DNA of 64,000 nt, from contig NZ_CP109171.1 of the NCBI RefSeq assembly GCF_036246005.1, positions 992,001 to 1,056,000 of the forward strand. The letters are read 5' to 3'. The notes beneath the pieces are model-generated. The model was not told the DNA's origin, made no database searches, and saw nothing but the letters and a program-made list of their open reading frames with translations. Source of the stretch: Streptomyces sp. NBC_01723 (GTDB taxonomy: Bacteria > Actinomycetota > Actinomycetes > Streptomycetales > Streptomycetaceae). Of this stretch, positions 28,195 through 48,258 are shown piece after piece. Every line of letters begins with the position of its first letter. The first letter of the stretch is position 1. Position numbers and translations under genes: made by a program.

Positions 28195-28473
28195 GATGGT
28201 CCACCCCGCTTAGTCAGCCTTCTTTCAGGGGACCAGAGACCTGTGCAGTCCGCCAGCGCAGCACAATCGCCGTCAGCCGCGGGTCTGAGTCACCCTGCCA
28301 GGAACAGTCACTGCGGTGCCCTCCGCGCCCTACTCCTCCTCGCAACGAAGCCTGCAAGATCACGGCGCCGAAAAGGACGAGCCACGTACAGATCCAGGGG
28401 TGCTCCCGGGTCCCGAGGTGGGGCCGCTCCTCATGCGCCTCGGCCGTGGAGCTTCCGACCGCCCCTGGTTGTC

Positions 28474-30201
28474 TCAATGTTGGATTTCGAGCACATCGGC
28501 CACGGGGCGTCGGGGTGTACGGGGCCCCACGGGGCCGTATCCCAGCCTCAGCAGCATCTGCGGGTGTCCCGCGCCGGTCTTCGGATCGCGAAGCAGCCAC
28601 CGCAGGTCGGGCCGTTCGAGAGGTTGTGTGGCGAGGGAGCAGACGAGGCCCTCGGCCGTCGCCAGCAGCAGGACGCGCTCCAGGGCCTGGCCTGCTTTCA
28701 CCCAGTCTTCCGGGCGGTCGTGCGTCGTGCTGATGCAGGCGATCTGGGGGGCGGTTTCGAAGACCGCGCTGTTGCGCCCGCTCACCCGACGCGGGCCCGC
28801 GAAGTCCCTCATTGGCGCCTTGCCCCCGCTCCGGACCGGGCCGAAGGCATACGCCGGTACTCCATCGGCCGCGCACTTCACCGAAGGCGCATCGGTGCGC
28901 GTCCATTCCGCCAGTTCCCGGTCGGACTCGCTGTCGGTGAGACCACGGGCGTCGGCCTCGCGCACGAGCTCCAGCACATGTTGTAGGTGCCACGATGCCG
29001 GGTAGACCAACCTGGCTCCCTCGCGGCGGGCTGCTTCCGCCAGCGCGTCGCGCAGGCCGTCGGGAATCCGCTTCTCCTCGAAGGGAAAGCGGCTGCTGTG
29101 CCGTTCGGCGACGGCCTTGTGCAGCGCGGCCAGATCGCGGTCACCAGCACCGCGCCCGGAAACCCGGACGGTCGCGACGAGCGACGGTTGCTCTGGGTGG
29201 GGCAGTAGCCAGGTCTCCGCCTGCCAGCCTTCGTCGGCCAGGGCTGCCCTCAGATTCAGCAAGGCGGCACCGCAGCCGATGTGGAGACCTCGGGTCCGTG
29301 GATCCGAATAAGGCATGGCGCGGTCGTAGTCCGCATGGAGCTCGAACGTACGGGTGTGCCGAACGTAGCGGAAGCGCCAGGGTTGCGCGTTGTGCATCGA
29401 CGGGGCCGCTACGGCGTCGCCGACCAGACTGATCACCTGTTCGTCGGATGGTGCTCGGTCGTTCACAGGTGTCTCCTCGTCCGCTCGCCGGAGAGCGGCT
29501 TCCTTGTCGCCGCCTGAAAAGTCGCTCTCCGACGCCGGCGCGTCCGCCTGTCGGTGGCGGGGACCGGTCAGCTCACAACGAACGTCGACCACCCCCTCGA
29601 CCGAGCGCGTCAGTCCTTCGACCAGCGGGACGACAGCGGTGTCGCCGACCTCGCCGGCGAGCGTGACCACACCTTCGTGGACCTCGACCCGAAGCGCACC
29701 CGCGCTGTCGGGGAGACGGCCGTCGAGGACCTCGCGCAGGACTTCCTCGGCGATCTCTTGGTCTGGCCTCAGGAAGACTCTCAACAGATCACCACGGCTG
29801 ACGATCCCCCGCAGTACGCCGTCGTCGTCCACCACGGGCATGCGTTTGATGCCACGGCGTGCCATGACGCGGGCGGCTCCGGCCAGGGTCTCGTCGGCGT
29901 GCACCGTGACGGCGGGAGACGTCATCAGGTCCGCCGCCGTCACCCCTCGGGCCTTGTCGTGGGCCGAGACGGACCCGGTCTTGCGCTGCATGTGCTGATC
30001 GCTGTCGCGGAACTCCTCCTTGCGCAGCAGGTCAGCCTCGGACACGACCCCGACCACGCGGTTCCCCACGTCGACCACGGGGAGGGCGCTGATCCGCCGG
30101 GTCCGCACGGTGCGCACGATGTCCTTGAAAGGCGCCCCGGCGGTGAGCGCCACGACGGAGCGGGTCATCACGTCACTCACGGTGTAGTCGGAGCCGTACA
30201 T
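28474..30201 (-). CDS. CBS-BON protein fused in frame to an Acg-type nitroreductase
   Basis: One uninterrupted 575-residue frame. Residues 1-235: two CBS domains (VSDVMTRSVVALTAGAPF, ADLMTSPAVTVHADETLA) and a BON domain (LRVEVHEGVVTLAGEVGD). Residues about 246-575: an Acg/Rv2032-like nitroreductase (AAPSMHNAQPWRFRYV, ERHSSRFPFEEKRIPDG, KAGQALERVLLLATAEGL), a family of the mycobacterial DosR regulon whose flavin pocket is degenerate. The ATG at 30201 follows GGGAGGAAACG. A GTG at 29466 with GAGGAG before it, just after a hairpin, looks like an old separate start. Two DevR-like boxes lie 48-84 bases upstream of the first ATG. Confidence 0.82.
   Translation of the reverse strand: MYGSDYTVSDVMTRSVVALTAGAPFKDIVRTVRTRRISALPVVDVGNRVVGVVSEADLLRKEEFRDSDQHMQRKTGSVSAHDKARGVTAADLMTSPAVTVHADETLAGAARVMARRGIKRMPVVDDDGVLRGIVSRGDLLRVFLRPDQEIAEEVLREVLDGRLPDSAGALRVEVHEGVVTLAGEVGDTAVVPLVEGLTRSVEGVVDVRCELTGPRHRQADAPASESDFSGGDKEAALRRADEETPVNDRAPSDEQVISLVGDAVAAPSMHNAQPWRFRYVRHTRTFELHADYDRAMPYSDPRTRGLHIGCGAALLNLRAALADEGWQAETWLLPHPEQPSLVATVRVSGRGAGDRDLAALHKAVAERHSSRFPFEEKRIPDGLRDALAEAARREGARLVYPASWHLQHVLELVREADARGLTDSESDRELAEWTRTDAPSVKCAADGVPAYAFGPVRSGGKAPMRDFAGPRRVSGRNSAVFETAPQIACISTTHDRPEDWVKAGQALERVLLLATAEGLVCSLATQPLERPDLRWLLRDPKTGAGHPQMLLRLGYGPVGPRTPRRPVADVLEIQH
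29466..29531 (-). promoter_or_regulatory. Internal RBS/start and hairpin at the CBS-BON/nitroreductase junction
   Basis: In the fused reading frame, 9-base arms CGGAGAGCG and CGCTCTCCG (29489-29497 and 29523-29531) form a hairpin. It is followed by GAGGAG and, six bases on, an in-frame GTG (29464-29466) that begins the nitroreductase-like sequence. This may still allow separate translation of the nitroreductase. Confidence 0.55.
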
Positions 30202-30248
30202 CGTTTCCTCCCGCGCATGGGGGTGGGACTCCCCACATGGCCAGGGTG

Positions 30249-30285
30249 AGCCTTCGAGGCCGTGGTGGCTTGGGCCGAACGGGCC
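30249..30285. promoter_or_regulatory. Candidate DevR/OsdR box pair upstream of CBS-BON-nitroreductase gene
   Basis: GGGCCGAACGGGCC at 30272-30285 (minus strand: GGCCCG-TTCG-GCCC) and a weaker copy around 30247-30260 (TGAGCC-TTCG-AGGC). Their centres are 23 bases apart and 54 and 77 bases upstream of the 30201 start codon. Confidence 0.5.
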
Positions 30286-30480
30286 CTCCCACGGGGCCGG
30301 TGTTCCCGCCGTGCTGCGGCTCGTCGCCCCGAGGCGGGGGGAGGCAGACACCGCCTCCAGGTCCTCGGTCCAGCCGGGTACGAGGACATGCCGGGTCGGG
30401 ATGCGGACGCCGAGGCGGTCCGGTGGGGGTTACGGCAGAGTGCTGGTCACCGTCGCCGCCGGGCCGGTCCGGAGGCCGGG

Positions 30481-30516
30481 AGGACCGACCGGCCCCCTTC
30501 ACGGGACCGGCGGCCC
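30481..30516. promoter_or_regulatory. Candidate DevR/OsdR box pair upstream of ppdK
   Basis: AGGACCGACCGGCC (30481-30494) and GGGACCGGCGGCCC (30503-30516), 22 bases apart, centred about 98 and 76 bases upstream of the ppdK ATG. Confidence 0.5.
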
Positions 30517-30585
30517 TCGCACCGCGCCGACCGGTGGGGAGACGCTGGGAACGGCACACACCCTCCGAGCCGAGGAGCGGGCGTC

Positions 30586-33282
<2,697 letters not shown>

Positions 33283-33518
33283 GGGCCACGGCACTGGAGG
33301 CGACGCCTGCGCATGTCCAAGACCGCGGCGCCGGCGTCATCGGCGGCGTTACGCAGCATCCGCCCGCGGCCGGTGTACCAGAGCGGCCAAGTCCGGATGC
33401 AGCACAAAGGGGGCCGTGAGGTACTTGTTCAAGGGAGTGCGCACGTTGCTGAGACCGCGGAGGCCACCTGTTATGTCACCAGCTGTCATCGCGGGTCTGG
33501 AGACCCGGGAGGCCCGCT

Positions 33519-35045
33519 GTGTCTGATCCGGGGCACCACGGGGATTCTGCGCCGGAACAGCGCGCGGACGTCTCTGAGACGCACACCGCAGTGGTCTTCT
33601 TCATGGGAGATCGCGCTTACAAGCGCAAGAAGCCGGTGAATCTGGGGTTCTTGGACTACACCGCGCTGTCGTCGCGTCGCGCCGTGTGTGAGCGCGAGAT
33701 CGAACTCAACCGACGGTTCTCGCCAGACGTGTACACGGGTCTGGGAGAGCTGCGCGCCCCGGGTGAGCAGGAGGCTGAGCCGCTTGTAGTGATGCGCCGC
33801 ATGCCTGGTGACCGCCGTCTGTCGCATCTTGTCCGGGCCGGAGCCCCCGTCGACGAAGCCCTACGGGCCGTCGCCAGGCAACTCGCCGCATGGCACGTCG
33901 CCGCGCCCCGAGGACCCGGCATCGCGGCACAGGGCACGCGGGACGCCCTGGCAGCGCGCTGGGACGCCAGTTTGGCGCAGGTCGATGCCATGGCCGCCGA
34001 GGGCGCGACGAGGGACGAGCTGACTGGGATCGAGCGGCTGTTCCGTCGCTATCTCGCGGGCCGCAAGCCCTTGTTCGACCTTCGCATCGAGCAGGGGCGG
34101 GTGCTCGACGGGCATGGTGACCTTCTCGCCGACGACATCTTCTGCCTCGACGACGGGCCACGGATCCTGGACTGCCTGGAGTTCGACGACCTTCTCCGGT
34201 ACGTCGACGGGCTTGACGACGCCGCGTTCCTGGCCATGGACCTCGAACTGCTGGGAGCGTCCGAGTCCGCGGCATTCTTCCTGGCCCAGTACAGCGAGTA
34301 CTCCGGTGACCACGCACCGCGGTCCTTGTGGCACCACTACGTCGCCTATCGCGCCTTCGTCCGGGCCAAGGTCTCCATGATCCAGGCCCGGCAGGGCGCG
34401 CCCGGCGCGCAGGCGACGGCACGACAGCTCGTCGTCATGGCGCTGCGCCATCTGCGGACTTCGGCCGTAGGTCTGACGCTCGTGGCCGGACTTCCCGGCA
34501 CCGGGAAGTCCACGCTTTCCGGGGCACTGGCCGACCGTCTGGGAGCAGTGCTGCTCAGCAGCGACCGTCTGCGCAAGGAGATGGCGGGACTCTCCCCTCA
34601 AGAGACCGCAACGGCCGAGTACGGCGAGGGCTTGTACACCCCTCAGTGGACGGCCAGAACCTATGTCGCGCTGCTGGACCGCGCAGCGGCTCTCCTGGCC
34701 AGGGGCGAGTCCGTGGTCCTGGATGCCACGTGGATCGACTCGGCCCAGCGCGAGGCGGCGCGGCGCACCGCAGAACACGCCGACGCCGATCTCGTGGCCC
34801 TGCACTGCCATGTGCCCGGCGACATGGCGGCGGCCCGCCTGACCACCCGTACCCCCGGCGCATCCGATGCCGATCTCCGCGTGGCCGACGCCATGGCGGC
34901 CAAGGAAGAGCCCTGGCCCGAGGCAATCAGCGTCGACACCAGCGGTTCTCTGGAATCGGCGGTCGCCCAGGCTATGGCGGCCGTCCGGCCGTGGGGCTCG
35001 GACCAGGCGAAAGTATTCCGGCGACCCTACATGGAGCCGGACTGA
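33519..35045 (+). CDS. APH-like kinase - AAA P-loop kinase fusion
   Basis: A 508-residue two-domain protein. Residues 1-310 resemble an aminoglycoside-phosphotransferase-type small-molecule kinase (VVFFMGDRAYKRKKPVNLGFLDY, catalytic LDGHGDLLADDIFC, then LDCLEFDDLLRYVDGLDDAAFLAMDL). Residues 318-500 are a P-loop kinase with Walker A GLPGTGKST (about 324) and DATWIDSAQREAARR. The substrate is unknown; the same fusion is seen in stress islands of several bacteria. It starts at a GTG with GGGAGG six bases upstream, 236 bases after ppdK. Confidence 0.85.
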   Translation: MSDPGHHGDSAPEQRADVSETHTAVVFFMGDRAYKRKKPVNLGFLDYTALSSRRAVCEREIELNRRFSPDVYTGLGELRAPGEQEAEPLVVMRRMPGDRRLSHLVRAGAPVDEALRAVARQLAAWHVAAPRGPGIAAQGTRDALAARWDASLAQVDAMAAEGATRDELTGIERLFRRYLAGRKPLFDLRIEQGRVLDGHGDLLADDIFCLDDGPRILDCLEFDDLLRYVDGLDDAAFLAMDLELLGASESAAFFLAQYSEYSGDHAPRSLWHHYVAYRAFVRAKVSMIQARQGAPGAQATARQLVVMALRHLRTSAVGLTLVAGLPGTGKSTLSGALADRLGAVLLSSDRLRKEMAGLSPQETATAEYGEGLYTPQWTARTYVALLDRAAALLARGESVVLDATWIDSAQREAARRTAEHADADLVALHCHVPGDMAAARLTTRTPGASDADLRVADAMAAKEEPWPEAISVDTSGSLESAVAQAMAAVRPWGSDQAKVFRRPYMEPD

Positions 35046-35406
35046 CGCACGGCGGTGTCCACCCGGCCCTGTCGGGACCCGGTCCTCCCCATGTCTCCCT
35101 GGCCGTGCGGGCGATGACCGGATTGCGGTCGCCGTGCGAAGGTACGGCGACCAGCGCGTCGCTACGCACCGTGCCCACCTCGGCGAGCTCCCCCCATCGG
35201 TCATGACCGAACCAGTCCGCCGCTCGACTTGACGGCAGGGCGAGGGCCGAACGGCCGGAAATCCGGCCCGGGCAGCCCCTGGCGTCGTGCCGCGCCCGGG
35301 AACAGCCTGGAATCAGCGAAGGGCGCGCCGCCCGGCCTGCGTGCGGAGGCGAGGTACCGCTGGACGCCACCCGACCGCGCGCCCCCGAGAAGCAGGGAGC
35401 GGAGCG
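35046..35406. other. Intergenic region with a candidate DevR/OsdR box
   Basis: No gene recognised. GGGCCGAACGGCCG at 35244-35257 (minus strand CGGCCG-TTCG-GCCC) fits the island's box pattern and lies about 157 bases upstream of the cyclic-nucleotide-domain gene. Confidence 0.4.
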
Positions 35407-35865
35407 ATGACCTCCATCACCACACTGGCCGCGGGCCTCCCGACGGAGCACCGTGAACGGCTCCTGCGAGCCGCTCGCGAGGTGTCCTTCGCGGCGGGCG
35501 CGCGCCTGTTCGAAGAGGGCGAGCGTGCCGACCGGTTCTGGATCGTCCGCACCGGCAGCGTCACCCTCGACCTGCGTGTGCCCGGCCGCCGGCCGGCCGC
35601 CATCGAGTCGCTCGGCCACGGGGAACTCCTCGGCTGGTCCTGGCACTTCCCGCCCTACCGGTGGCATCTGGGCGCTGAGGCGATGACCCCGGTTCGGGCC
35701 TGGGAGTTCGACGCCGAGGCCGTGCGTGGCCTGTGCGCCCAGGACCCGGCGTTCGGCCGTGCGGTCGCCGTCTGGGTCGGCAACGTGGTCGCCCAGAGGC
35801 TGCACGCGGCGCGCATCAGGCTGCTCGACCTGTACGGCCCGCACGGGAGCGGAAGCCTCCCATGA
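35407..35865 (+). CDS. Crp-type cyclic nucleotide-binding domain protein without HTH
   Basis: A 152-residue protein with one cNMP-binding beta-roll: VSFAAGARLFEEGERADRFWIVRTGSVTLDLRV, then GHGELLGWSWHFPPYRWHLGAEAM. The C-helix (VGNVVAQRLHAARIRLLDLYG) is present, but there is no C-terminal DNA-binding HTH, so it is not a normal CRP/FNR regulator. The phosphate-binding cassette lacks the usual RAA or RSA of cAMP-binding CRPs, so the ligand is unclear. The ATG has GGGAGCGGAG upstream. A CBS-BON gene follows 35 bases later, probably cotranscribed. Confidence 0.87.
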   Translation: MTSITTLAAGLPTEHRERLLRAAREVSFAAGARLFEEGERADRFWIVRTGSVTLDLRVPGRRPAAIESLGHGELLGWSWHFPPYRWHLGAEAMTPVRAWEFDAEAVRGLCAQDPAFGRAVAVWVGNVVAQRLHAARIRLLDLYGPHGSGSLP

Positions 35866-35900
35866 CCCGGACGTCGTCCACTCCGCGAGAAGGAAACACC

Positions 35901-36581
35901 ATGCTGTACGCCGGTCCGCGCGTCGTGAGCGACGTCATGACGCACACCGTCGTGGCCGTGGGCCGCGACGCCCCGTTCAAGGACATCGTCACGCTCATGC
36001 AGCAGTGGAAGGTCAGTGCCCTGCCCGTGCTGGAGGGCGAGGGCCGGGTCATCGGCGTCGTCTCCGAGGCCGACCTGCTCCCCAAGGAGGAGTTCCGCGA
36101 CAGCGACCCGGACCGGTTCACCCAGATGCGCCGTCTGGCCGACCTGGCCAAGGCGGGAGGGCTGAGCGCGGCAGACGTGATGTCCGCGCCCGCCGTCACC
36201 GTCCACCCCGACGCCACGCTGGCGGAGGCGGCCCGCATCATGGCCCGGCGGAGCGTCAAGCGACTGCCGGTGGTCAGCTCTGAGGGACTGCTGGAGGGTG
36301 TGGTGAGCCGGGGAGACCTGCTGCGAGTCTTCCTGCGCGCGGACGAGGAGATCGCCGACGAAGTCGAGCACGACATCGTGCCGATCGTCTTCCCGGGCGC
36401 GGCCCGCCCTGTCCGCGTGGCCGTCGCCGACGGCGTGGTCACGCTCACGGGCCCCTTCCGGGACACGTCCCTCGTCCCGGTCGCCGCCCGACTGGTCCGC
36501 GCGGTGGAGGGCGTGGTCGACGTCGAGTGCAGGGTCGAGCGTGACGAGCCTCGTGAGGCCGTGGGAAGCAACAACCCCTGA
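35901..36581 (+). CDS. CBS-pair and BON domain protein
   Basis: A 226-residue protein: CBS1 (VSDVMTHTVVAVGRDAPFKDIV), CBS2 (ADVMSAPAVTVHPDATLAEAARIMARRSVKRLPVV) and a C-terminal BON domain (VRVAVADGVVTLTGPFRD). CBS pairs bind adenosyl ligands (AMP, ATP, SAM); the BON domain may contact membranes or partners. It parallels the hypoxic response proteins of mycobacterial DosR regulons. It is one of three paralogues here (others at 28474 and 47430). RBS AGAAGGA. A strong hairpin follows. Confidence 0.92.
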   Translation: MLYAGPRVVSDVMTHTVVAVGRDAPFKDIVTLMQQWKVSALPVLEGEGRVIGVVSEADLLPKEEFRDSDPDRFTQMRRLADLAKAGGLSAADVMSAPAVTVHPDATLAEAARIMARRSVKRLPVVSSEGLLEGVVSRGDLLRVFLRADEEIADEVEHDIVPIVFPGAARPVRVAVADGVVTLTGPFRDTSLVPVAARLVRAVEGVVDVECRVERDEPREAVGSNNP

Positions 36582-36597
36582 CCGGCGTGGCACGACC

Positions 36598-36627
36598 GTG
36601 CGCGGCCGGTGGTGTCCGGCCGCGCAC
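36598..36627. terminator. Perfect 12-bp hairpin terminator
   Basis: GTGCGCGGCCGG (36598-36609), loop TGGTGT, CCGGCCGCGCAC (36616-36627), 17 bases after the CBS-BON stop and before the convergent PPOX gene; likely bidirectional. Confidence 0.85.
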
Positions 36628-36682
36628 GGCGTTGTGGGTACCCGCACCCGACAGGACGGTCAAGTCCTCCCGCGGGTCTGAC

Positions 36683-37123: not shown

Positions 37124-37209
37124 CGGCCCGCCGTCTCTCGTTCGTGAACCGTTCTCACCAGTGGTTCGGACGCGCCCGGCGCCACCGGACGCATCCGGCG
37201 AAGGTCGTG

Positions 37210-38280: not shown

Positions 38281-38414
38281 CGCGATGCTCACCCTCTCTG
38301 TGCTCGGGAGCGTCCTGGGCCCGGCCGGCCGGATTCGCCAACGGGCCCGCGACCGTCGTTACGACGGGGGCTGCCCCATGCCTCCAGAATGTCGCGGGGG
38401 CGTGGGTCACGCTT

Positions 38415-38428
38415 GGGCCGGACGGCCC
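38415..38428. promoter_or_regulatory. Candidate DevR/OsdR box upstream of alcohol dehydrogenase
   Basis: GGGCCGGACGGCCC (minus strand GGGCCG-TCCG-GCCC), preceded by TT, about 141 bases upstream of the ATG at 38280. The rest of 38281-38703 shows no gene. Confidence 0.4.
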
Positions 38429-38703
38429 CCGCACGCCGCTCGTCGGCCCCCGAACCGGGCCCGACGACCCGTTCGGTGAGGGCTCCGCCACTGCCAACTA
38501 AGGACGGGCCGACGATGGAAGGTCGGTGCGGCCGCTACGGCTTCCGGCGGCGGCCAATGACCCGGAGCCAGGCACTCCCGAGCCATAGGTGACCCTGCCG
38601 GGTCCCAGCCGGCGTCCTGCAGCGCTCGGATGTCCTCGGAAACGGGACCGACCGCCGCTCCTCGGCCGACCGGCCGGCCCGACCACGTTCGCGGAGGCGC
38701 CGG

Positions 38704-39564: not shown

Positions 39565-39591
39565 GATCCCTCCTCCACACGGCAGTAGACG

Positions 39592-40497
39592 TCAGAGGTG
39601 CGCGACAACGGCGACGGGGGCGGTGGCGTGGTGCATCACCGCGTGGGTGATGGCGCCGATGTGCGCTCCGAACGGGTTGTGACGAACGCGTCGGCCGACG
39701 ACCAGGAGGGACGCGTCGTGCGAGACGTCGACCAGATGGCGGGCGGGACTGCCAGAGCGGGACACCTCGACGACCTCGACGCCCGGGTACTTCTGCCGCC
39801 AGGGCAGCAACACCCGGGTGAGGTCGGACGCCTTCCTGCGGACCGCCCCTTCCTCGGGTGCCGCACCCGCAGCCAGCACGTACGGGTAGTACGGCGGCAG
39901 CTGCCAGCCGCTGACCACGTGCAGTGCGGTGCCGCGGCGTCGAGCCTCCTCGAAGGCGAAGTCCAGGACGCTGTCGTCGGGGCTGTCGCTGTCGACCCCG
40001 ACGACGACGGGCCGGAACGCGGTGGCCGCAGAAGGGATTCCGGAGGGATCCATCACGTGCTCGTCTGTCGCCTGCTCGCCCGCTCGCACGAGGACCACGG
40101 GGGTCTCGGTGTGGGCGATCACGGCCTGTCCGACCGAGCCGACGAGGAAGCCGCCGAGTCCGCTCAGGGCGCGCGATCCGAGGACGAGCAGTTCCGCCCC
40201 CTCGCTGGACTTGACCAGTGCGTCCGCCGGCTGGCCGGACAGCTGCTCACTCATCACCCCGACACCAGGATGGCGACGCTCCAGTCCCTCGGCCGTTTCC
40301 CGCGGAACACGCTCCGTCCAGTGCTGGTGCGTGTCGGCGCCGAGGAGCGGGGCTTGGGCCATGGGCTCGGGCACCGGCTCCCAGACGTGCAGCAGACGTA
40401 CCGGCACGTCGCGCAGCTCGGCCTCGCGGGCCGCCCATTCAGCGGCGGCTCGGCTCTCGGGCGAGCCGTCGATCCCCACGGTGATCATGCGGGTCAT
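39592..40497 (-). CDS. Tandem-domain universal stress protein
   Basis: A 301-residue double USP: domain 1 ITVGIDGSPESRAAAEWAAREAEL with the loop VLGSRALSGLGGFLVGSVGQ; domain 2 VVVGVDSDSPDDSVLDFAFEEARRR with VVGRRVRHNPFGAHIGAITHAV. The ATP loop is near-canonical in domain 1 and altered in domain 2. The ATG at 40497 has AGGAGG eight bases upstream; two DevR-like boxes lie 65-100 bases upstream. First gene of a two-gene operon. Confidence 0.93.
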   Translation of the reverse strand: MTRMITVGIDGSPESRAAAEWAAREAELRDVPVRLLHVWEPVPEPMAQAPLLGADTHQHWTERVPRETAEGLERRHPGVGVMSEQLSGQPADALVKSSEGAELLVLGSRALSGLGGFLVGSVGQAVIAHTETPVVLVRAGEQATDEHVMDPSGIPSAATAFRPVVVGVDSDSPDDSVLDFAFEEARRRGTALHVVSGWQLPPYYPYVLAAGAAPEEGAVRRKASDLTRVLLPWRQKYPGVEVVEVSRSGSPARHLVDVSHDASLLVVGRRVRHNPFGAHIGAITHAVMHHATAPVAVVAHL

Positions 40498-40561
40498 GCT
40501 GCACACCTCCTGGGTCAGGTCTTCCTGTTCTCAGCGTGTGACGCGGCCGGCCCCTGGGCGA

Positions 40562-40596
40562 GGGCCGCTGGTCCCCGCGATGCGGCCGAGGGTCCC
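40562..40596. promoter_or_regulatory. Candidate DevR/OsdR box pair upstream of USP operon
   Basis: On the minus strand GGGACC-AGCG-GCCC (40562-40575) and GGGACC-CTCG-GCCG (40583-40596), 21 bases apart, centred about 72 and 93 bases upstream of the USP ATG at 40497. Confidence 0.5.
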
Positions 40597-40654
40597 GCGC
40601 CGGACGGTGGGGCAGGCCTCGGCCCCGTCTCCGAACCTGCCCCACCGGTCCTCT

Positions 40655-40858
40655 TCAGCGCAGCCACATCCGGTCGCGGACGATCGGCAGCCGGGACCAC
40701 GGCCGACCGAGACCGACAGCGTCGCCGGCGGACGCCGTGGCCAGGACGACGAGTACCGCCGCGTAGACGATGTGGTAGTCCACGAACGGGTTCGTGGACA
40801 TGCCGGGAGCACCGTCCGGCAGATGCCGCGCAGGAGGCCACTCGGCCATCCACATCGG
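40655..40858 (-). pseudogene. C-terminal remnant of a DoxX-family membrane protein
   Basis: The last 68 codons read PMWMAEWPPARHL...MSTNPFVDYHIVYAAVLVVLATASAGDAVGLGRPW, the usual final helices and tail of actinobacterial DoxX/thiosulfate-quinone oxidoreductase-like membrane proteins. The N-terminal half of about 120 residues is missing. Upstream sequence at about 40858 changes abruptly into a nitroreductase gene on the other strand. Confidence 0.7.
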
Positions 40859-41575
40859 CCCTGGAACGTCTGATCTCCGCGGCCGCGGCCGCTCCATCCC
40901 TTCACGGCACCCAGCCCTGGCGCTTCGGCCTCGAACCGGACACCTGCACGCCGGAGGTCACAGCCGCTGCCGAACGAGCGCTGCCCCGTGCCGACCCGAG
41001 GGGCGCGCCGTCCATCTGACTGCGGGCTGCGCGGCCTTCAACCTGCGCGTGGCCGCGGTCCACCTGGGCTGGGAACCGATGACACGATTGCTACCTCACC
41101 CCGACCGCCCCGATCTGCTGGCCACGGTCCGGCTCGCGGACGCCACCCGCACCACGGTTGCACCCGGGTCGTACGACGCTGTCCGGTACCGGCACAGCAG
41201 CCGGTTCCCCTTCTCCGGCGTGGCGCTGCCCCTCGATCTCCGCGGCGAACTGGCCGACGCGGCTCGGACGGACGTCCTATCGCCCCGCCCTCTGGAGCGA
41301 CCACCACAGCTCGCGGTTCTCGCCACGGCCCAGGACCGCCGGACGGACTGGCTGCACGCCGGTCAGGCACTGGAACGTGTACTCCTGCTGGCAACCGCGT
41401 CCGGCGTGCAGGCCTCCCTGCTGCACCAGGCCGTGGAGTGGGCGGACTGCGCGGCCGGCTCAGTGACTCGACGGCTGCGCGTCGCGCCCGGCCGCAGATG
41501 GTGATTCGCATCGGTTACGGTCCGGGGAGCTCCCTCTCACCCCGACACGGCGCCGACCGAGTCTGGAGCCCGTGA
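40858..41575 (+). pseudogene. Degraded Acg-type nitroreductase
   Basis: Three frames together give a broken relative of the nitroreductase part at 28474. It begins abruptly without a start at ALERLISAAAAAPSLHGTQPWRFGL. A one-base excess in the GGGG near 41005 shifts to VHLTAGCAAFNLRVAAVHLGWEP and SSRFPFSGVALPLDL. About 100 residues are then missing before LAVLATAQDRR and HAGQALERVLLLATASG, and a last shift gives MVIRIGYGPG. It cannot make the family protein. Confidence 0.75.
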
Positions 41576-41613
41576 CGCACCCGGCACACTGAACGGATCG
41601 CCGCCCGCGGAGG

Positions 41614-43374
41614 TCAGGGGGTCGGCCCGGCGGCCTCCCCCGCCACGGGCACCCTCCACACGAGGCGAGTCCCTCCCCCCTCGGGACTCTCCAGGCGCAT
41701 CTCTCCGCCGAGCTTGCACGCGCGTTCCGCCATGTTGCGCAGTCCGCTGCGGTGACCGCCGGGCGGGATGCCGACCCCGTCGTCGGAGACCGTGAGCCCG
41801 ACCCAGGTGCCGTCCGTCTCCAGGACGACATCGGCACGGCCGGCGTGGGCGTGGCGTGCGACGTTGGTCAAGGACTCCGTCAGGACCGCTACGAGGTGCT
41901 CGACGGTGTCCCTCGGTACGTGCGTGTCGAGCAGACCCTCCATCCGGATACCGGGGGCGAAGCCCAGTGCCGGCGCCGTCTCCGCGACGGTGCGGACCGC
42001 ACGGGCCCGCAGCGCGGACGACGTGCCGTCGCCCTCTCTGGCTCGCAGCCCGAAGATCGTCGATCGGATGATCTTGATCGTCTCGTCAAGGTCCCCCACG
42101 GCCCGCTGGACCCGTTCCGCGGCCTTGGCGTGCTGGATGAAGCGCGCCGCGCTCTGCAGAGTCATGGCCGTGGCGAACAGACGCTGGATCGCCAGGTCGT
42201 GCAGATCCCGCGCGATGCGGTCACGGTCCTCGAGCAACGCGATCTGCTCCGCGTCCCGGCGGCGTTCGGCCAGTTCCATGGCGACCGCGGCCTGGGCCGC
42301 GAACACCTGCAGTGATCCGGTCTCCTCCTGAGTGAACCCGGGGTCGGACGCCGCTCGCACCAGCAGCACCACACCGCGCAGACGCTCGCCCGCAACCACG
42401 GGTACGGCCACGGCGGGCCCCAGTCCCGAGAAACGCGGCGGGCCCACCGAGATCCGCTCGTCGCCCGCCACGTCCGGGCTCCTCACCGGTGCTCTGCCGG
42501 CGTACGCCGCGCCGACGAGGCTGCCCTCCACGGGCAGCACCAGTCCGCGCCAGGTCTCGGCCTCGCGGCCGATCGCCACCTCCACCGCCAGATCCTGGGT
42601 ACCGGGGATGGGCAAGGCCACAACCCCGAGAGCGGACACCGTGATCTCCTGAGCCCGCTCCGCGATCAGCCTGAGTGCGTCGCTCTGCTCGGCACCGGAC
42701 ATCAGGGTGTGCATGATCTCCGCGTTTACCTCCAGCCAGCGCTCACGCAGCCTGGATCTCTCGTACATCCTCGCGTTGTCGATCGCCACGCCGGCCGCCA
42801 CGGCCAAGGTGGCCAGTACCGACTCGTCGTCCTCGTCGAATTCCCGCCCGCCGCGCTTCTCCGTCAGGTACAGGTTGCCGAAGACGTGATCGCGGACACG
42901 GATGGGGACGCCCAGGAAGGTGTTCATGGGCGGATGGTGCGACGGGAACCCGTAGGAGGCGGGGTGGTCGGAGAGCTTGGCCAGGCGCAGCGGCTCGGGG
43001 TGTCTGATCAGCTCCCCCAGGATGCCGTGCCCCTCCGGGAACGGACCGATGCGGGCGATCTCCTCTTCGCCGACCCCCACGGTGTGGAAGGCGGACAGCC
43101 GCCGGCCGTCCGGGCTGATCACGCCCAGCGCACCGTATTCGGCGTCCACGAGCGTCGCCGCGGCCTCCACGATGCCGCGCAGCGCCTGCTCCAGCTCCAG
43201 CTCCCGGCCCACCGAGAGCGCCGCCTCCAGCAGGCTGTGCACCCGGTCATGAGTGCCGCGGGCAGCGTCGAGTCGGGCCTGCAACTCGCCCAGCAGCTCG
43301 TCCAGCCGCAGCTGTGGCAGCCGCACCTCCCGCGCCCCCTCGGGTTCTCCCACCACCGGCCTCCGTGCGCCCAT
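41614..43374 (-). CDS. GAF-domain sensor histidine kinase, DevS/OsdK-like
   Basis: About 586 residues. Two GAF domains (about 50-195 and 215-365) precede an NarX-type dimerisation/phosphorylation domain (RIARDLHDLAIQRLF, His in DLHD) and a HATPase (LTESLTNVARHAHA, VSDDGVGIPPGG). GAF-1 contains SHHPPMNTFLGVPIRVRD, equivalent to the segment carrying the haem-ligand His in DevS/DosS (from memory, His149). Oxygen or redox sensing is therefore likely, though haem binding is unproven. Start uncertain: ATG 43374, or GTG 43392 or 43407. It lies 112 bases downstream of its response regulator. Confidence 0.9.
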   Translation of the reverse strand: MGARRPVVGEPEGAREVRLPQLRLDELLGELQARLDAARGTHDRVHSLLEAALSVGRELELEQALRGIVEAAATLVDAEYGALGVISPDGRRLSAFHTVGVGEEEIARIGPFPEGHGILGELIRHPEPLRLAKLSDHPASYGFPSHHPPMNTFLGVPIRVRDHVFGNLYLTEKRGGREFDEDDESVLATLAVAAGVAIDNARMYERSRLRERWLEVNAEIMHTLMSGAEQSDALRLIAERAQEITVSALGVVALPIPGTQDLAVEVAIGREAETWRGLVLPVEGSLVGAAYAGRAPVRSPDVAGDERISVGPPRFSGLGPAVAVPVVAGERLRGVVLLVRAASDPGFTQEETGSLQVFAAQAAVAMELAERRRDAEQIALLEDRDRIARDLHDLAIQRLFATAMTLQSAARFIQHAKAAERVQRAVGDLDETIKIIRSTIFGLRAREGDGTSSALRARAVRTVAETAPALGFAPGIRMEGLLDTHVPRDTVEHLVAVLTESLTNVARHAHAGRADVVLETDGTWVGLTVSDDGVGIPPGGHRSGLRNMAERACKLGGEMRLESPEGGGTRLVWRVPVAGEAAGPTP

Positions 43375-43486
43375 GGACAGTACGGCTCTCACACCGCACG
43401 TCTCCACGGTAGCGGCTCCCAGGGGACCGCGACATGGGAGTCGGTCGGCTCCGCACCACGCCCGGGGACGGGACCCCGGCGGCGGG

Positions 43487-44176
43487 TCAGTGTCCTTCGG
43501 TCCGCATGCGGTCCTGGGCGTGGGTCGCGATCACGGCGGCCTGGATGCGCCGCTCCACCCCAAGCTTGGCGAGCAGGCGGGAGATGTGGTTCTTGACCGT
43601 CTTCTCCGCCAGATACAGCCGCTGGCCGATCTGCCGATTGGTGAGCCCCTCTCCGATCAGCGCCAGGATGTCCCGCTCCCGCTGGGTCAGGCCGGGCAGC
43701 GCGTCCGGCTCCTCGGGCTCCTGCCCGCCGCGCAGCCGTGCCATCACTTTCGTGGTGGCGCTCGGGTCCAGGAGGGACTGTCCACGGGCCACGGTACGCA
43801 CCGCGGAGACGAGATCCGAGCCCTCGATCTGTTTCAGCACGTAACCGGCCGCACCCGCCATGATCGAGTCGAGCAGCGCCTCCTCGTCGTCGAACGAGGT
43901 CAGCATCAGACAGGCCAGGTCGGGCATGCTCGAACGCAGTTCCCGGCACACGGTCACCCCGTCGCCGTCCGGCAGGCGCACATCCAGTACGGCCACGTCC
44001 GGCCGCAGCGCCGGGACCCGGGCCAGGGCCTGTGCGACACTCGCCCCCTCGCCGACCACGGTGATGTCGGGCTCGTCGTCCAGCAGGTCGTGCACCCCCC
44101 GCCGGACGACCTCGTGATCGTCCAGAAGGAAGACCTTGATCTCGGTCACCCCGTCGGCCCGCTCGCTGCCCATCAT
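43487..44176 (-). CDS. NarL/FixJ-type response regulator, DevR/OsdR-like
   Basis: A 229-residue regulator: receiver domain [19 protein letters not shown], phosphoacceptor Asp in [13 protein letters not shown], Thr in LTSFDDEE, Lys in YVLKQIEG; C-terminal Lux[20 protein letters not shown] and [15 protein letters not shown]. The KTVKNH recognition helix is nearly identical to that of mycobacterial DevR (DosR). It is probably the master regulator of the surrounding island. ATG at 44176 with GAGGAG upstream. A DevR-like box lies about 75 bases upstream (44244), suggesting autoregulation. Confidence 0.93.
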
Positions 44177-44243
44177 CGACCACTCCTCGAGGACGCGTCC
44201 CTGCTCCAGCCTCAGTCTTCCCCCGTGCCGGGGCCATGGGCCA

Positions 44244-44257
44244 GGGCCGGTCGGCCC
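44244..44257. promoter_or_regulatory. Candidate DevR/OsdR box upstream of the response-regulator gene
   Basis: GGGCCG-GTCG-GCCC, about 75 bases upstream of the 44176 start codon, between the regulator and the upstream USP gene. Confidence 0.5.
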
Positions 44258-44319
44258 ACTCTCGGCCGTGCTCCGCGGCTCCGGGCGACGGACGGCTCGC
44301 GGCCACGGGGGGCCGGGTG

Positions 44320-45201
44320 TCACGCCGCCTGGGGCACGACCGCCACCGGGCAGGCCGCGTGCTGGAGCAGGGTGTGGGTGACTCGCCCGAGCTGGAGGCC
44401 GAAGTGGCCGGACCTGTGCCTGGCGCCCACGACGACGAGATCGGCGGCGGCCGACCGTGCCACCAGCACCTTGCGGGCGGGCCCCTCGATCGTCGTCCTG
44501 CGCATCTGGACACTGGGATGCGCCGTCACTGCCTCCGCTGTCAACGTGTCGATCAGGGCGGACGCCCGCTCCTGGTGCTGATGCCCGGCATCGGCCAGCG
44601 CCGCGGCCCCCATGATCTCGTACTCCGGGCAGCGCCAGGCCCGTACCACGTCCAGTTCGCAATCTCGTATCTCGGCCTCGTCGAATGCGAACCGCAGCGC
44701 CTCACCGCTCGTGTCGGGGTCGCCCGCACCCAGCAGGACACGCTGGTGGGAGCCGGACAGCGCGGGCTTGTCGCCCCGGACCACGATCACGGGGCAGTCG
44801 GCCCGCGCGGCGACGGCCAGGCTCACCGAGCCGAGCAGCGCCCCTTTGAGCTCTCCACGGCCGCGTGATCCCGTGATCACCGCCGTGGCGTGCATGCCTT
44901 CGGCCAGCAGCGCGGACACCGCCTCCGCGGGCACCACCTCGGTGTCGATCTCCAGGTCGGGGCCGTACCGGCGAACACGTTCGGCGGCCGTGCCGACGAT
45001 GTTGTCCGCCATCACCTGTTCGGAGGGGCGCTCCCGGCCCACGGCCGGTCGGACACCCTCGTACCGCTCCCACAGCGAGGCGTAGACGAGGCGCAACGGG
45101 AGTCGGCGCAGCAGCGCCTCGTCCACCGCCCAGTCGATGGCCTGCAGGCTGCCGTCCGACCCGTCGACTCCGACCACCAGGGGAAGTGCCATCATCTCCA
45201 C
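44320..45201 (-). CDS. Tandem-domain universal stress protein
   Basis: A 293-residue double USP: domain 1 [26 protein letters not shown] with ATP loop [18 protein letters not shown]; domain 2 [24 protein letters not shown] with [22 protein letters not shown], again degenerate. It is the closest relative in this window of the USP at 38704. The GTG at 45201 has GGAGGAG at good spacing; ATGs at 45195 and 45192 are also possible. It lies upstream of the regulator/kinase pair and probably heads that transcript. Confidence 0.92.
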
Positions 45202-45278
45202 CGCCTTCTCCTCCGCGTCCCCCCTCGTGCCGCATGGCTTGCCGTCTTCACGGTCGCACTGCCCGGACAGACATGACA

Positions 45279-45364
45279 GGGACGGGCGGGTCCCGACAGG
45301 GGACCTTCGGCCCTCCGGCAGGATGACGTGCCGTCCGGGCTCTTCTGCAGGGGCCGAACGCCCC
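45279..45364. promoter_or_regulatory. Candidate DevR/OsdR boxes upstream of USP gene
   Basis: Three elements: GGGAC-N6-GTCCC at 45279-45294; the best match in the window, GGGACCTTCGGCCC at 45300-45313; and GGGCCGAACGCCCC at 45351-45364 (minus strand GGGGCG-TTCG-GCCC). The first two lie 85-106 bases upstream of the 45201 start. The remainder of 45202-45568 shows no gene. Confidence 0.55.
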
Positions 45365-45568
45365 TCGTCCTGTGGCCGCCCGTGCGTGACGCTGGTGAAC
45401 AGCGGGGGCGGAGTGAGGCGAGGCGATCGTCATGCAACGGATCCCTGTGACAAGTCACCCCCGGCCGCCACGCCGGCCGGACCCGCCGGACCTGCTTACG
45501 CCCTCGGGGCGGCCGATGCCCTATTAGTACGGCCGCACCCGGGGATCTCGCCGACCAGGTCGCGCCCG

Positions 45569-46216
45569 TCAGGTTTCGAGCGGACCCGGGGCGTCCTCCG
45601 GGGCGCCGTTGATGACCCGTAGCTCTGTCTCCGGCGGCCTGGTGAGGGAGTTCGTGACCGTGCAGTGGGCCACCACCGCACGCAGTGCTCCCAGCTTCTC
45701 CGGTGGCAGCTCCGGAGCCACGACTGTGAGGGACAGCGAAGCCACCCGGGCCGGCCGGTCGTCCGCCATCCGGAATCGCGCGCGGACGGACAGACCGTCA
45801 CGGCCCACACCGTGCCGGTCCAGGAACCGCCCGGCGTAGTGCGCCGCGCACGAGGCCACCGCCGCGACGCACAGTTCCACCGGGGTGGGAGCGGTGTCCT
45901 TGCCTCCGTCGGTGAGCGGCTGATCGACGGTCAGGACGTGTCCACGGACGCGTATCTCGTAGGCGTCCCCGACTAACGGCACCACCTCGACCGCTCCGGG
46001 GTCGGGACGGGGCTCCGGATCCACGGCGGCGGCCTGGTACAGCAGCAGCCCGGCCAGGCGTCTTGCCTCCTCGGCCGTGAGCGACGCCCACAGCTCGTCC
46101 TCGTCGTGGGTGGAGAACGAGGTGTCCAGGACGACCCGGCCCATCCGCCCGGGCAGACCTTCCGGGGCGAACCGGGTGACGTTGATCGTGCGGCCACAGC
46201 GTGTGTGCAGTTTCAT
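45569..46216 (-). CDS. OsmC/Ohr-family protein
   Basis: A 215-residue OsmC-fold protein with an extra N-terminal region. The two redox cysteines are visible in TPVELCVAAVASCAAHYAGRFL (helix) and VVAHCTVTNSL, the site that reduces organic hydroperoxides or related thiols in the family. About 60 N-terminal residues (THDEDELWASLTAEEARRLAGLLLYQAAAV) resemble a separate small domain fused to some actinobacterial OsmC proteins. It sits in the stress island between USP and Xre-PPOX genes. ATG at 46216; no clear RBS. Confidence 0.88.
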   Translation of the reverse strand: MKLHTRCGRTINVTRFAPEGLPGRMGRVVLDTSFSTHDEDELWASLTAEEARRLAGLLLYQAAAVDPEPRPDPGAVEVVPLVGDAYEIRVRGHVLTVDQPLTDGGKDTAPTPVELCVAAVASCAAHYAGRFLDRHGVGRDGLSVRARFRMADDRPARVASLSLTVVAPELPPEKLGALRAVVAHCTVTNSLTRPPETELRVINGAPEDAPGPLET

Positions 46217-46302
46217 CGTGTCTCCCGCGAAGTTTCGACCGTCCGGCTCCTCTTCGTCGGCCGGGCATCTCCCGTCTCACGTCACGGCGCGCGGGCGCGC
46301 GC

Positions 46303-47211
46303 TCATGAGCCGGCCGCCGACGTGATCCGTCGCCCCGTCAGACGCCCGGTCGACACGGCGAACCAGAACGTACGCGCCCCGCCCGCCCAGGGCACGGTGT
46401 GGGCGGCCTCGTCCAGCCGGCGTGCCTCTTCCGGATCCGTGACGGCCCGGCACCGGCCCACGACAAGGACACTCCACCCCTGGCTCATCGCGTCGTCCAC
46501 GTGGTCGACCTCGAAGGCGACCTCATGGTCCGCGGCCGCGGCCGCCGCCGAGCCCGGAGCGGTGCGGAAGACGACCTCCCCTTCCGCCGCGTCGTAGTCG
46601 TAGTTGACGGGAAGCACGCAGGGACCGTGCTCCGAGGTGAACGCCAGGCGCCCCACTCCGTGCGTGGACAGCAGTGCCCGGCATTCGTCCCCGTCGAGGT
46701 CGCTCAGACGCGGGGTGGCGAGGGCCACTCCCTGCCCGGGCGGGCGGTCCGTGCCGCCCCCCTGCAGTTCGGCGTACGTGGTCCCAAGGGCATCTGCCAG
46801 CCGCAGCAGGGAGCCGAAGCCCGGGTCCGCGGTGTGATTCTCCAAGTAGGCCACGTACTGGGGTGCCATACCCGCTCTCCGGGCCACCTCCTCGAGCCCC
46901 AGGCCCTTGCGCCGGCGGGCGGCGAGCAGGCGTCGCCCGATGTCCCCTGCGCCGGTGGCAGGCTTCGGCGCTCGGTGGGCCGGGCGAGTTGTCCGCCTCG
47001 CCTCCGGCACCTGGTCCTGGGGCTCCCCGGGACGGTCCACATGCGCGTCGGGACCGGGAAAGACCAAGGTGACGTCTCCGGTGTCGGACCAGCGGACGTC
47101 GTAGGGCGGAGTCCCGTCGTCGTGGTGCAGGCCGACGATCTCCCCATCCCGCCGGACGACGCCGGTGGAGGGACTCTCGACGACCAGCCGGTCGCCAACG
47201 TGCGCGTACAT
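46303..47211 (-). CDS. DUF1918 - Xre HTH - PPOX three-domain protein
   Basis: A 302-residue fusion. Residues 1-58 are DUF1918 (VGDRLVVESPSTGVVRRDGEIVGL, PPYDVRWSDTGDVTLVFPGPD), an SH3-like domain; residues 88-150 an Xre HTH (LAARRRKGLGLEEVARRAGMAPQYVAYLEN); residues 170-300 a PPOX split barrel (LSTHGVGRLAFTSEHGPCVLPVNYDYD, VAFEVDHVDDAMSQGWSVLVVG). It is the most elaborate of three PPOX proteins in the island. It may be a DNA-bound redox sensor. It shares a promoter region with the divergent CBS-BON gene. Confidence 0.88.
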   Translation of the reverse strand: MYAHVGDRLVVESPSTGVVRRDGEIVGLHHDDGTPPYDVRWSDTGDVTLVFPGPDAHVDRPGEPQDQVPEARRTTRPAHRAPKPATGAGDIGRRLLAARRRKGLGLEEVARRAGMAPQYVAYLENHTADPGFGSLLRLADALGTTYAELQGGGTDRPPGQGVALATPRLSDLDGDECRALLSTHGVGRLAFTSEHGPCVLPVNYDYDAAEGEVVFRTAPGSAAAAAADHEVAFEVDHVDDAMSQGWSVLVVGRCRAVTDPEEARRLDEAAHTVPWAGGARTFWFAVSTGRLTGRRITSAAGS

Positions 47212-47299
47212 GACGGTGCCCTCTCCCTCGATGAGGCTCTGCTTCCAGCGTCACGCCCCGAGGCCGTGCCCACCAGACGGCCGAGGGTCCCGGCGGCGG

Positions 47300-47336
47300 G
47301 TGCCGAACGGCCCTGGCCGCGTTGCACGAAGGGCCC
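47300..47336. promoter_or_regulatory. Candidate DevR/OsdR box pair in a divergent promoter
   Basis: GTGCCGAACGGCCC (47300-47313; minus GGGCCG-TTCG-GCAC) and TGCACGAAGGGCCC (47323-47336; minus GGGCCC-TTCG-TGCA), exactly 23 bases apart. They could serve both the CBS-BON gene (47430) and the DUF1918-Xre-PPOX gene (47211). Confidence 0.55.
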
Positions 47337-47429
47337 CAAGCTCCTGACGGCCCGCGTGAGCACAGTGGGAGTGACCGGTGCGGATGGCCCCGGCGGCCGG
47401 CCCGCAGTGATCATCCCCAAGGAGGAGTC

Positions 47430-48101
47430 ATGCAGCACCGAACGGTGGGAGACCTCATGACCCGAGGTGTCGTCCAGGTCCACAAGGACGCGTCGTTCAA
47501 GACGATCGCGCGTTTGCTGGCCGACAACGACGTCACCGCCCTACCCGTGGTCGACGATCTCCGACACCCCCTCGGCGTCGTGTCGGAGGCCGATCTGGTG
47601 GTCAGGATCGCCGAACGCCCCGACCCGGCCGGGCCGGTTGTCTACGCGGCCTCGCCCCGGACGGACGACACTGCGGGCGACGACGTCACGGCGGAAGCGC
47701 TGATGACGGCGCCGGCGGAGTGCGCACGACCGGAGTGGACCGTCGTGGAGGCCGCGCGGGCGATGGAGTCCGGAGGAGTCAAGCGTCTGCCCGTGGTGGA
47801 CGAGGTGGGACAACTGGTGGGCATCGTCAGCCGCGGCGATCTCCTCCGGGTGTTCCTGCGTCGGGACGAAGCCCTGCGCGAGGAGATCAGCCGTGACCTG
47901 CTCGTCCGGACTCTGGGCCTTGCGCCGACCAGCCTGACGGTGGACGTCACCGATGGCCGCGTCACGCTGAAGGGCCGCGTGGACAGCGCGGAGCTGGTCC
48001 CCGTCATCGAGCGCCTCTGCCTGGGTGTCGACGGCGTGGTGTCCGTCGACACCGAGATCGTCAGCCGTTCCGGGGAGTCGGTGGAGGAGAGCATCAGCTG
48101 A
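47430..48101 (+). CDS. CBS-pair and BON domain protein
   Basis: A 223-residue protein: CBS1 (VGDLMTRGVVQVHKDASFKTIARLLADNDVTALPVVD), CBS2 (AEALMTAPAECARPEWTVVEAARAMESGGVKRLPVVD) and BON (LTVDVTDGRVTLKGRVDSAELV). Same architecture as the paralogues at 28474 and 35901. The ATG follows AAGGAGGAG, a near-perfect RBS, pointing to high expression. It is followed by the Rv1733c-like and USP genes on the same strand. Confidence 0.93.
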   Translation: MQHRTVGDLMTRGVVQVHKDASFKTIARLLADNDVTALPVVDDLRHPLGVVSEADLVVRIAERPDPAGPVVYAASPRTDDTAGDDVTAEALMTAPAECARPEWTVVEAARAMESGGVKRLPVVDEVGQLVGIVSRGDLLRVFLRRDEALREEISRDLLVRTLGLAPTSLTVDVTDGRVTLKGRVDSAELVPVIERLCLGVDGVVSVDTEIVSRSGESVEESIS

Positions 48102-48188
48102 GTCCGCCATGCCCGTGGCGGTGGTGCCGCATCTCTCCGAAGGACCGCTGCCCATCGGGGCCGGACGACCCGGGCAGAGCGCGAGCGG

Positions 48189-48202
48189 TGCCCGAACGGC
48201 CC
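48189..48202. promoter_or_regulatory. Candidate DevR/OsdR box upstream of the Rv1733c-like gene
   Basis: TGCCCGAACGGCCC (minus strand GGGCCG-TTCG-GGCA), centred about 64 bases upstream of the ATG at 48259. Confidence 0.5.
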
Positions 48203-48258
48203 ATACCGCGCATCGTCGCGGGGCGTGAGGCTGAAGTCGACAGCCGGAGGTGGTCACA

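Follow-up and report, generated by a model that had tools for sequence, protein, structure and literature searches.

A local array of OsdR boxes in a Streptomyces stress island, with a preferred pair spacing, a register to a –10-like element and a predicted microprotein

The OsdR box, AGGGCCGATCGGCCCT, is a published motif of Streptomyces coelicolor, where it has been studied by electrophoretic mobility shift assay (EMSA), with point mutants and in reporter assays, and where mutation of osdR leaves the osdR, uspA and SCO0207 promoters with little or no expression (Urem 2016, PMC5069765). The closest solved relative of OsdR is DevR of Mycobacterium tuberculosis, which binds cooperatively to at least two boxes per promoter, with the proximal site overlapping the –35 element (PMC3029386). 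Here a 64-kb stretch of Streptomyces sp. NBC_01723 was analysed (C1:992001-1056000 of an 8.85-Mb genome, hereafter the window; positions are those of the window unless C1 is given). Its repeated motif is, by its sequence, the OsdR box, the predicted site of a Streptomyces counterpart of the M. tuberculosis regulator of dormancy, and the island in which it recurs (approximately 28.5-49.8 kb) is very probably the core regulon of the OsdK/OsdR pair, with the boxes as its sites. A first-pass annotation of the window had called the motif DevR-box-like, which is correct, and had missed that it is already known in Streptomyces.

The comparison with S. coelicolor is close. The regulon of its OsdR (SCO0204) has the same consensus and the same kinds of targets (osdR, usp, ppdK, nitroreductase and alcohol dehydrogenase), and the box of the osdR promoter is near-identical in the two species (AGGGCCGGTCGGCCCC in S. 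coelicolor, AGGGCCGGTCGGCCCA here). With M. tuberculosis the island has multi-box promoters in common, and with the NarL family in general the receiver and GerE helix-turn-helix domains found in OsdR; the box core here is GGGCCG-NN-CGGCCC, and the mycobacterial P and S sites score 8.6 and -6.7 on the streptomycete matrix described below. The array itself would be a further OsdR regulon. The main text of PMC5069765 does not contain the terms spacing, tandem, transcription start or two binding sites, so that three features reported here, the paired spacing, the register to the –10 and the overlap of two boxes at osdR, appear undescribed there; its Table 1 names no microprotein. More broadly, the main texts of the literature searched seem to contain no description of this promoter grammar, of the double box at osdR or of the microprotein.

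The motif was scored with a palindromic 16-bp matrix built solely from the 26 16-mers (25 distinct) in Table 1 of PMC5069765; its sites are independent of the choice made in the first-pass annotation, and it was not fitted to the window. Ranks 1-7 of the 64-kb scan (44243, 47299, 45299, 30481, 38414, 35243 and 45350) are all places listed in that annotation, and 30271 and 40561 follow at ranks 9 and 16. The motif family is present at all 14 places listed; the literal form given for it, GGGNCC-NN-CGGCCC, has three exact matches in the window, and two more with a three-base middle. In the 18-kb region 30200-48250, sites of score at least 12 number 8 and those of at least 14 number 7, where 800 kb of the same genome would lead one to expect 0.38 and 0.11; the window outside it has two (0.98 expected) and none (0.29 expected), respectively. 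Among 200 column-permuted palindromic matrices, one reaches the island count at a score of at least 12 and none that at 14.

Several points weigh against this identification. Most of the source sites of the matrix are predictions, some being EMSA-confirmed, and the species that supplied them is a related one, whose homologous promoters share descent with those here. Five of the listed sites are weak on their own (48188, rank 34; 30502, 36; 40582, 159; 47322, 166; 45278, 227). Over the whole genome the loose palindrome GGGMCSDHSGKCCC is found at 46 places vs 82 for its reversed control, that is, without excess, and GGGCCGAWCGGCCC with up to two mismatches at 1148 vs 1012, a slight excess. With little or no genome-wide excess, this is a local array, and of the forward-strand places with one mismatch to GGGCCGAWCGGCCC among the matches listed, 6 of 17 fall in 1,022,272-1,039,313 of the contig. 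The weight-matrix enrichment proposed as a check is confirmed within the island, with little or no excess of the motif patterns in the genome as a whole, a limit that had been missed. In DNA of 71% GC, the sites might be chance palindromes, as the loose pattern and the three listed sites of rank 159-227 would suggest; the strong sites, in excess over both the expectation and the permuted matrices, speak against it, as does the register to the –10 described below.

By sequence, the regulator is DevR-like and the kinase DevS-like. Of 207 residues aligned between OsdR and M. tuberculosis DevR, 129 are identical; OsdR has DevR as best match among solved structures (3c3w, 5.4e-80), and keeps all of the DevR residues D54, K104, K179, K182 and N183, of which we take D54 to be the phospho-Asp and the others to have roles that include DNA contact in DevR-type regulators. 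In the relatives sampled (see below), the closest protein is OsdR of S. parvulus (96% identical). The first GAF domain of OsdK matches 2vzw, presumably DosT, and DevS GAF structures (3e-50 to 3e-45), and has the His of HPPM followed by a Tyr 22 residues on, with the same spacing as in DevS-type GAF domains; both residues presumably have heme roles.

A second regulator, encoded at C1:4127500-4128132 (L165), is 67% identical to OsdR and keeps the recognition-helix core AEKT(I/V)KN, so that the boxes might be bound mainly by this paralogue, alone or in competition with OsdR. The paralogue is also a candidate for the SCO3818-like second partner of OsdK; in S. coelicolor, SCO3818 is a cognate regulator of OsdK besides OsdR (PMC5069765). 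That it is the main ligand of the boxes is nonetheless unlikely: osdR lies within the box-rich island and its own box is the best of the window, and in the S. coelicolor osdR mutant reporter activity dropped at three promoters (PMC5069765). Alongside the paralogue lies a palindrome, GGGGACGTAAGTCCCG, of score 10.0 (L165:1459). Two osdR-like genes are also found in some relatives, on one contig in S. longwoodensis (L051, L068) and on two in Streptomyces sp. H39-S7 (L074, L075).

The organisation of the boxes was studied in 80 loci of relatives, centred on osdR homologues and approximately 20 kb long unless cut short by the end of the contig. They contain 358 sites of score at least 12 (0.24 per kb vs 0.021 per kb in the background of the window's own genome), reduced to 329 by dropping those in annotated homologues or near locus ends, and to 278 representatives held to less than 50% ungapped flank identity. 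A partner of score at least 5 lies at 20-24 bp in 70 of the 278, with 2-22 in the other 5-bp bins; the partner hits at this distance number 71, whereas 100 permuted matrices used as detectors average 3.9 and never exceed 28, and the unique pairs number 69, vs a mean of 8.5 and a maximum of 20 per 5-bp window elsewhere. The pairing at 21-23 bp noticed in the first-pass annotation is thus real as a preference. In the window, boxes are spaced by 21 bp (30481/30502, 40561/40582, 45278/45299), 22 bp (30271/30293, 47277/47299), 23 bp (47299/47322) and 31 bp (48157/48188), and its nine strong intergenic boxes, taken jointly, surpass randomly placed intergenic anchors in the quality of their partners at 20-24 bp (P 0.0002), with P from 0.03 to 0.84 when taken singly. 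A weaker 10.5-bp periodicity persists at 25-100 bp (P 0.005 for that single period, which had been read off overlapping data, main peak included, before P was computed).

The relatives are not phylogenetically independent, few partner hits occur in osdR promoters (3 in 60 representatives) and pnp1-family promoters (2 in 31), and the osdR box of the window has no partner at 20-24 bp, all of which count against the regulon reading. Shared descent, together with the centring of all loci on osdR homologues, also leaves room for the pairs to reflect common ancestry or duplicated promoters instead of a selected spacing. This seems very improbable, given that partner hits come from 11 of 14 named promoter families (among others usp2 with 11 hits in 23 representatives, adh with 5 in 11, usp3 with 4 in 8 and cnb with 4 in 9; four of the 11 have a single hit) and from the unassigned sites (36 hits in 109 representatives), that the flanks are less than 50% identical, that the periodicity runs on beyond the first peak, and that the P and S sites of M. 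tuberculosis tgs1-Rv3131 are likewise 22 bp apart, as counted from the oligonucleotide printed in PMC3029386.

The boxes are also in register with the –10. When the 169 representatives with a named gene are oriented geneward, 87 of them have an AnnnT whose A lies 31 or 32 bp from the centre of the box. Over 716 oriented sites (the 358 read both ways), it occurs 89 times at +31 and 71 times at +32, and 25, 43 and 37 times at +52 to +54, to which it shifts where the partner is the gene-proximal box, with 2-20 occurrences at other offsets from +26 to +59. As a control, 204 oriented boxes of score at least 10 were taken from 1.6 Mb of the same genome beyond the window; in these, AnnnT occurs 2, 3 and 8 times at +31, +32 and +33, and also 8 times at each of +26, +44 and +46. 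Because the second half of this sample was picked largely around GGGMCSDHSGKCCC/GGGCCGAWCGGCCC places, the expected values of the mechanical count given below are, if anything, too high. The canonical TANNNT was rejected as the –10, having 12 occurrences in the 169 oriented promoters and no peak, and the signal is nAnnnT. Within the window, nAnnnT stands at +31 to +33 from the gene-proximal box in all 11 assigned promoters (10 genes and the microprotein), including those with the weak proximal boxes 45278, 47277, 47322, 48188 and 35264. In many pairs it is the weak partner that lies nearer the gene and in register with the promoter, a point missed in the first-pass annotation.

A mechanical count of island boxes with AnnnT at 31-33 yields 6 at a score of at least 12 (0.06 expected) and 10 at a score of at least 6 (1.05 expected), box 45350 being counted in both directions and the latter set including one match inside osmC, compared with 0 (0.14 expected) and 2 (2.67 expected) in the rest of the window. 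At a score of at least 2 the island has 20 vs 5.4 expected, so several of the weak matches are chance. Outside the window, the 1.6 Mb sampled hold 13 boxes of score at least 10 with AnnnT at 31-33, three of them then followed by an open reading frame (ORF) with a ribosome-binding-site-like stretch. The register is less secure in that the 11 of 11 has some freedom, with the proximal box chosen by hand and an offset window of 3 bp, and in that it is not evident in 20 loci of other genera, which have AnnnT three times at +31, four times at +32 and five times at +42. Together with the excess of strong sites, its absence from background boxes makes the origin of the boxes by chance practically untenable as a general explanation; it is taken as refuted for the strong sites and possible for single weak partners.

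The promoter of osdR is organised differently, with an overlapping pair instead, which the first-pass annotation had missed. The relatives' osdR promoters have in common AGGGCCGANCGGCCCTGGNCNNNNGNCCC, that is, two boxes offset by 14 bp with a 2-bp overlap, and a separate peak of 14 bp among the pairs (10 unique pairs) is almost wholly due to this promoter. In its strict form (GGNCNNNNGNCC at a fixed place) the second box is found in 23 of 60 osdR representatives vs none of 109 others, and in its loose form (six of the seven key letters) in 29 of 60 vs 3 of 109, so that about half of the osdR promoters at most carry it. The window's osdR promoter carries it between the activating box and the –10, a position that makes a brake on autoregulation a natural, if tentative, guess, with the chances somewhat against it; alternatively, the second box could provide extra affinity.

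What the sequence itself shows is the nature of the motif, its enrichment within the island, the spacing and register of the boxes, the kinds of genes present and the purifying selection on the microprotein family; OsdR binding and activation in S. coelicolor are the work of others. In the following model, we infer that OsdR binds in this species too, where transcription starts, that dimers cooperate, that osdR has a brake and that the microprotein is expressed. OsdK, a DevS-like kinase whose first GAF domain is of the heme type, would transfer phosphate to OsdR, and OsdR would then bind boxes of the GGGCCG-NN-CGGCCC type. The centre of the proximal box, approximately 32 bp upstream of the –10 A and thus near –43, would place it in the position of the –35 (class II activation), a fit that rests on the AnnnT at +31 to +33 and on predicted starts. 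At many promoters, a second dimer 20-24 bp (two helical turns) further upstream would stabilise a weak proximal box cooperatively. Class II activation with cooperative upstream dimers is suggested by the proximal box near –43 together with the cooperative binding and –35 overlap of DevR (PMC3029386) and the dependence on osdR in S. coelicolor (PMC5069765). At osdR itself, the strong box shares 2 bp with a second one nearer the promoter, and this second box might damp positive autoregulation when phosphorylated OsdR is abundant, and box 45350 would drive a 31-residue microprotein. Such a grammar, a proximal box at approximately 32 bp from the –10 and a partner two or more turns upstream, may tell probable true sites apart from chance matches in GC-rich DNA more reliably than the motif by itself; it would give a reason for weak boxes to matter and predict a special autoregulatory promoter, and an unannotated microprotein family may share in the dormancy response.

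The microprotein was missed in the first-pass annotation: one strong box, 45350, faces its ORF. Read rightward, this box has GACGCT at +31, and the ORF, unannotated and of 31 codons, starts 43 bp past that A; it appears to belong to a conserved actinobacterial microprotein family ending in DLRTPSGRPLPY/F. A single-sequence search of 199 genomes of the same genus gave 30 places in 29 genomes, the own genome included, at E<=1e-3, and some match in every genome at a permissive limit of 10. From 29 peptides, an alignment of 21 rows was made, the eight omitted being duplicates, close GRI-type variants and L252, in which there is no in-frame start at the usual place; L269 was dropped for lack of a convincing peptide. 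With the alignment, matches at E<=1e-3 (E-values per single genome) are found in 81 of the 199 Streptomyces genomes and in 38 of 296 genomes of the class, from 19 of 114 genera.

The family is under strong purifying selection at the protein level, as seen in its codons: mean entropy over 29 loci is 0.51, 0.56 and 1.32 at codon positions 1, 2 and 3 (0.18, 0.11 and 1.23 in the last 12 codons), and the ratio of nonsynonymous to synonymous differences (pN/pS) stays under 1 in every one of 406 pairs, with a median of 0.40 and a maximum of 0.78. Antisense coding as the source of this pattern was rejected: 26 of 29 loci do have an open antisense frame in the same register, but the variation falls on codon position 3 as read in the sense frame, as sense coding requires. 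A resemblance of the 3' end to a 23S rRNA end was considered and also dropped, because the whole 149-bp stretch has a single place in the genome and relatives keep the frame, not the DNA. Four members scanned match no curated family model (0 in Pfam and 0 in NCBIfam at E<=10), four fragments of the sequence retrieve 0 papers in a literature text search, and these fragments are absent from the main text of a paper on Streptomyces small ORFs (PMC10654065).

The link of the microprotein to OsdR would be restricted to part of the family. A box of score at least 9 lies within 260 bp upstream in 14 of 17 non-GRI members vs 0 of 12 GRI members, and one of at least 8 in 15 of 36 distinct same-genus places (46 loci before ten duplicate GRI places were merged) and in 1 of 24 loci of other genera. 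A universal stress protein gene is found within approximately 1.5 kb in 9 of 29 Streptomyces loci examined. Of the 15 with a box, the window's alone has AnnnT at +31 to +33 of the strong box, seven have it at 51-55 and seven at neither distance. The link is weakened by L276, a close relative of the window peptide with no box of score at least 8 and no recognised island neighbour in its 3 kb. On balance it seems probable that this is an overlooked actinobacterial microprotein family with a streptomycete branch under OsdR control, whose peptide would be a dormancy or hypoxia effector; that it acts as a small, basic, proline-rich (proline-arginine-rich) stress effector is a guess. Outside the OsdR branch, no consistent gene neighbours appear in the loci scanned, SsgA occurring twice: the relatives L283 and L289, from other genera, lie near SsgA-type sporulation genes.

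The features are collected in Table 1.

Table 1. Predicted OsdR boxes (start to end, with matrix scores) and genes of the island, in window positions
Feature	Position	Strand	Remarks
OsdR box 12.8	30271..30286	-	Upstream of CBS-BON-nitroreductase frame; –10-like CACCCT, A at +31
Weaker partner box 7.1	30293		22 bp from 30271
OsdR box 14.9, distal box of ppdK	30481..30496	+	
OsdR box 6.6, proximal box of ppdK	30502..30517	+	21 bp from distal; –10-like GACGCT 30541-30546
OsdR box 14.4	35243..35258	+	Upstream of cnb; –10-like CAGCCT 35303-35308
Weak proximal partner box 1.6 of cnb	35264		
cnb, cyclic-nucleotide-binding-domain gene	35407-35865		
adh, zinc alcohol dehydrogenase gene	37213-38280		
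OsdR box 14.7	38414..38429	-	Upstream of adh; –10-like CATTCT at +31
usp2	39595-40497		usp1 next downstream
OsdR box pair (40561, 9.9; 40582, 2.4)	40561..40597	-	Upstream of usp2; –10-like CACGCT at +31 of 40561
osdK, sensor kinase	41617..43374	-	GAF domains, HisKA_3, HATPase (domain scan)
osdR, NarL/DevR-type response regulator	43490..44176	-	Receiver and GerE
Overlapping second box of osdR promoter, ctGGCCCATGGCCCCg	44229..44244	-	Shifted 14 bp toward gene
OsdR box 17.0 of osdR, best of window	44243..44258	-	–10-like AAGACT 44219-44214
usp3	44323-45192		
Weak proximal OsdR box 1.5 of usp3	45278..45293	-	–10-like GACCGT at +31
Strong distal OsdR box 15.6 of usp3, GGGGACCTTCGGCCCT	45299..45314	-	
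OsdR box 14.0 facing microprotein ORF	45350..45365	+	–10-like GACGCT 45388-45393
31-codon ORF, MQRIPVTSHPRPPRRPDPPDLLTPSGRPMPY	45432..45527	+	Conserved microprotein family
OsdR boxes 47277 (4.2), 47299 (16.0), 47322 (2.3)	47277..47337	.	22 and 23 bp apart; between divergent xrePnp (46306-47211, -) and cbs3 (47430-48101, +); –10-like GACGCT (-), CACAGT (+)
OsdR boxes 48157 (9.0), 48188 (6.7)	48157..48203	+	31 bp apart; upstream of ORF 48259-48840; –10-like GAGGCT 48227-48232

A box can be assigned to 10 of the 17 tabulated island genes; aphAAA, cbs2, pnp1, usp1, osdK, osmC and usp4 are without one, which tells against a box-controlled island as a whole, and some of them may be cotranscribed. 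The regulon expected in the first-pass annotation is indeed found downstream of the boxes, with genes of the Usp, CBS, PPDK and nitroreductase kinds and osdR, and an alcohol dehydrogenase besides, and its interpretation is supported as right in kind; for the ORF 48259-48840, called Rv1733c-like, the domain scan gave no Pfam match. The distance of 55-125 bp between box centre and start codon describes most promoters (63-123 bp), the boxes 38414 upstream of adh, 35243 of cnb and 45350 of usp3 lying farther, at 141, 156 and 165 bp. A scan of 28-50 kb with Rfam at gathering thresholds gave no match.

Elsewhere in the genome, a strong box of score 16.4, GGGGCCGGACGGCCCC, is found at L196:3185 (C1:2873185), with TTAGGCTAACC 29-39 bp from its centre and no ORF with a ribosome-binding site within 200 bp; we take TTAGGCTAACC to resemble an iron box. 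In the island, the stretch 28477-30201 on the minus strand is a single open frame of 575 residues with CBS, BON and nitroreductase domains, which may be a fusion uniting two kinds of regulon member, or else a pair of overlapping genes taken for a single one. The protein encoded by xrePnp combines DUF1918, an XRE-type helix-turn-helix and pyridoxamine-oxidase-like domains, and its gene has box 47299 in common with the divergent CBS-BON gene.

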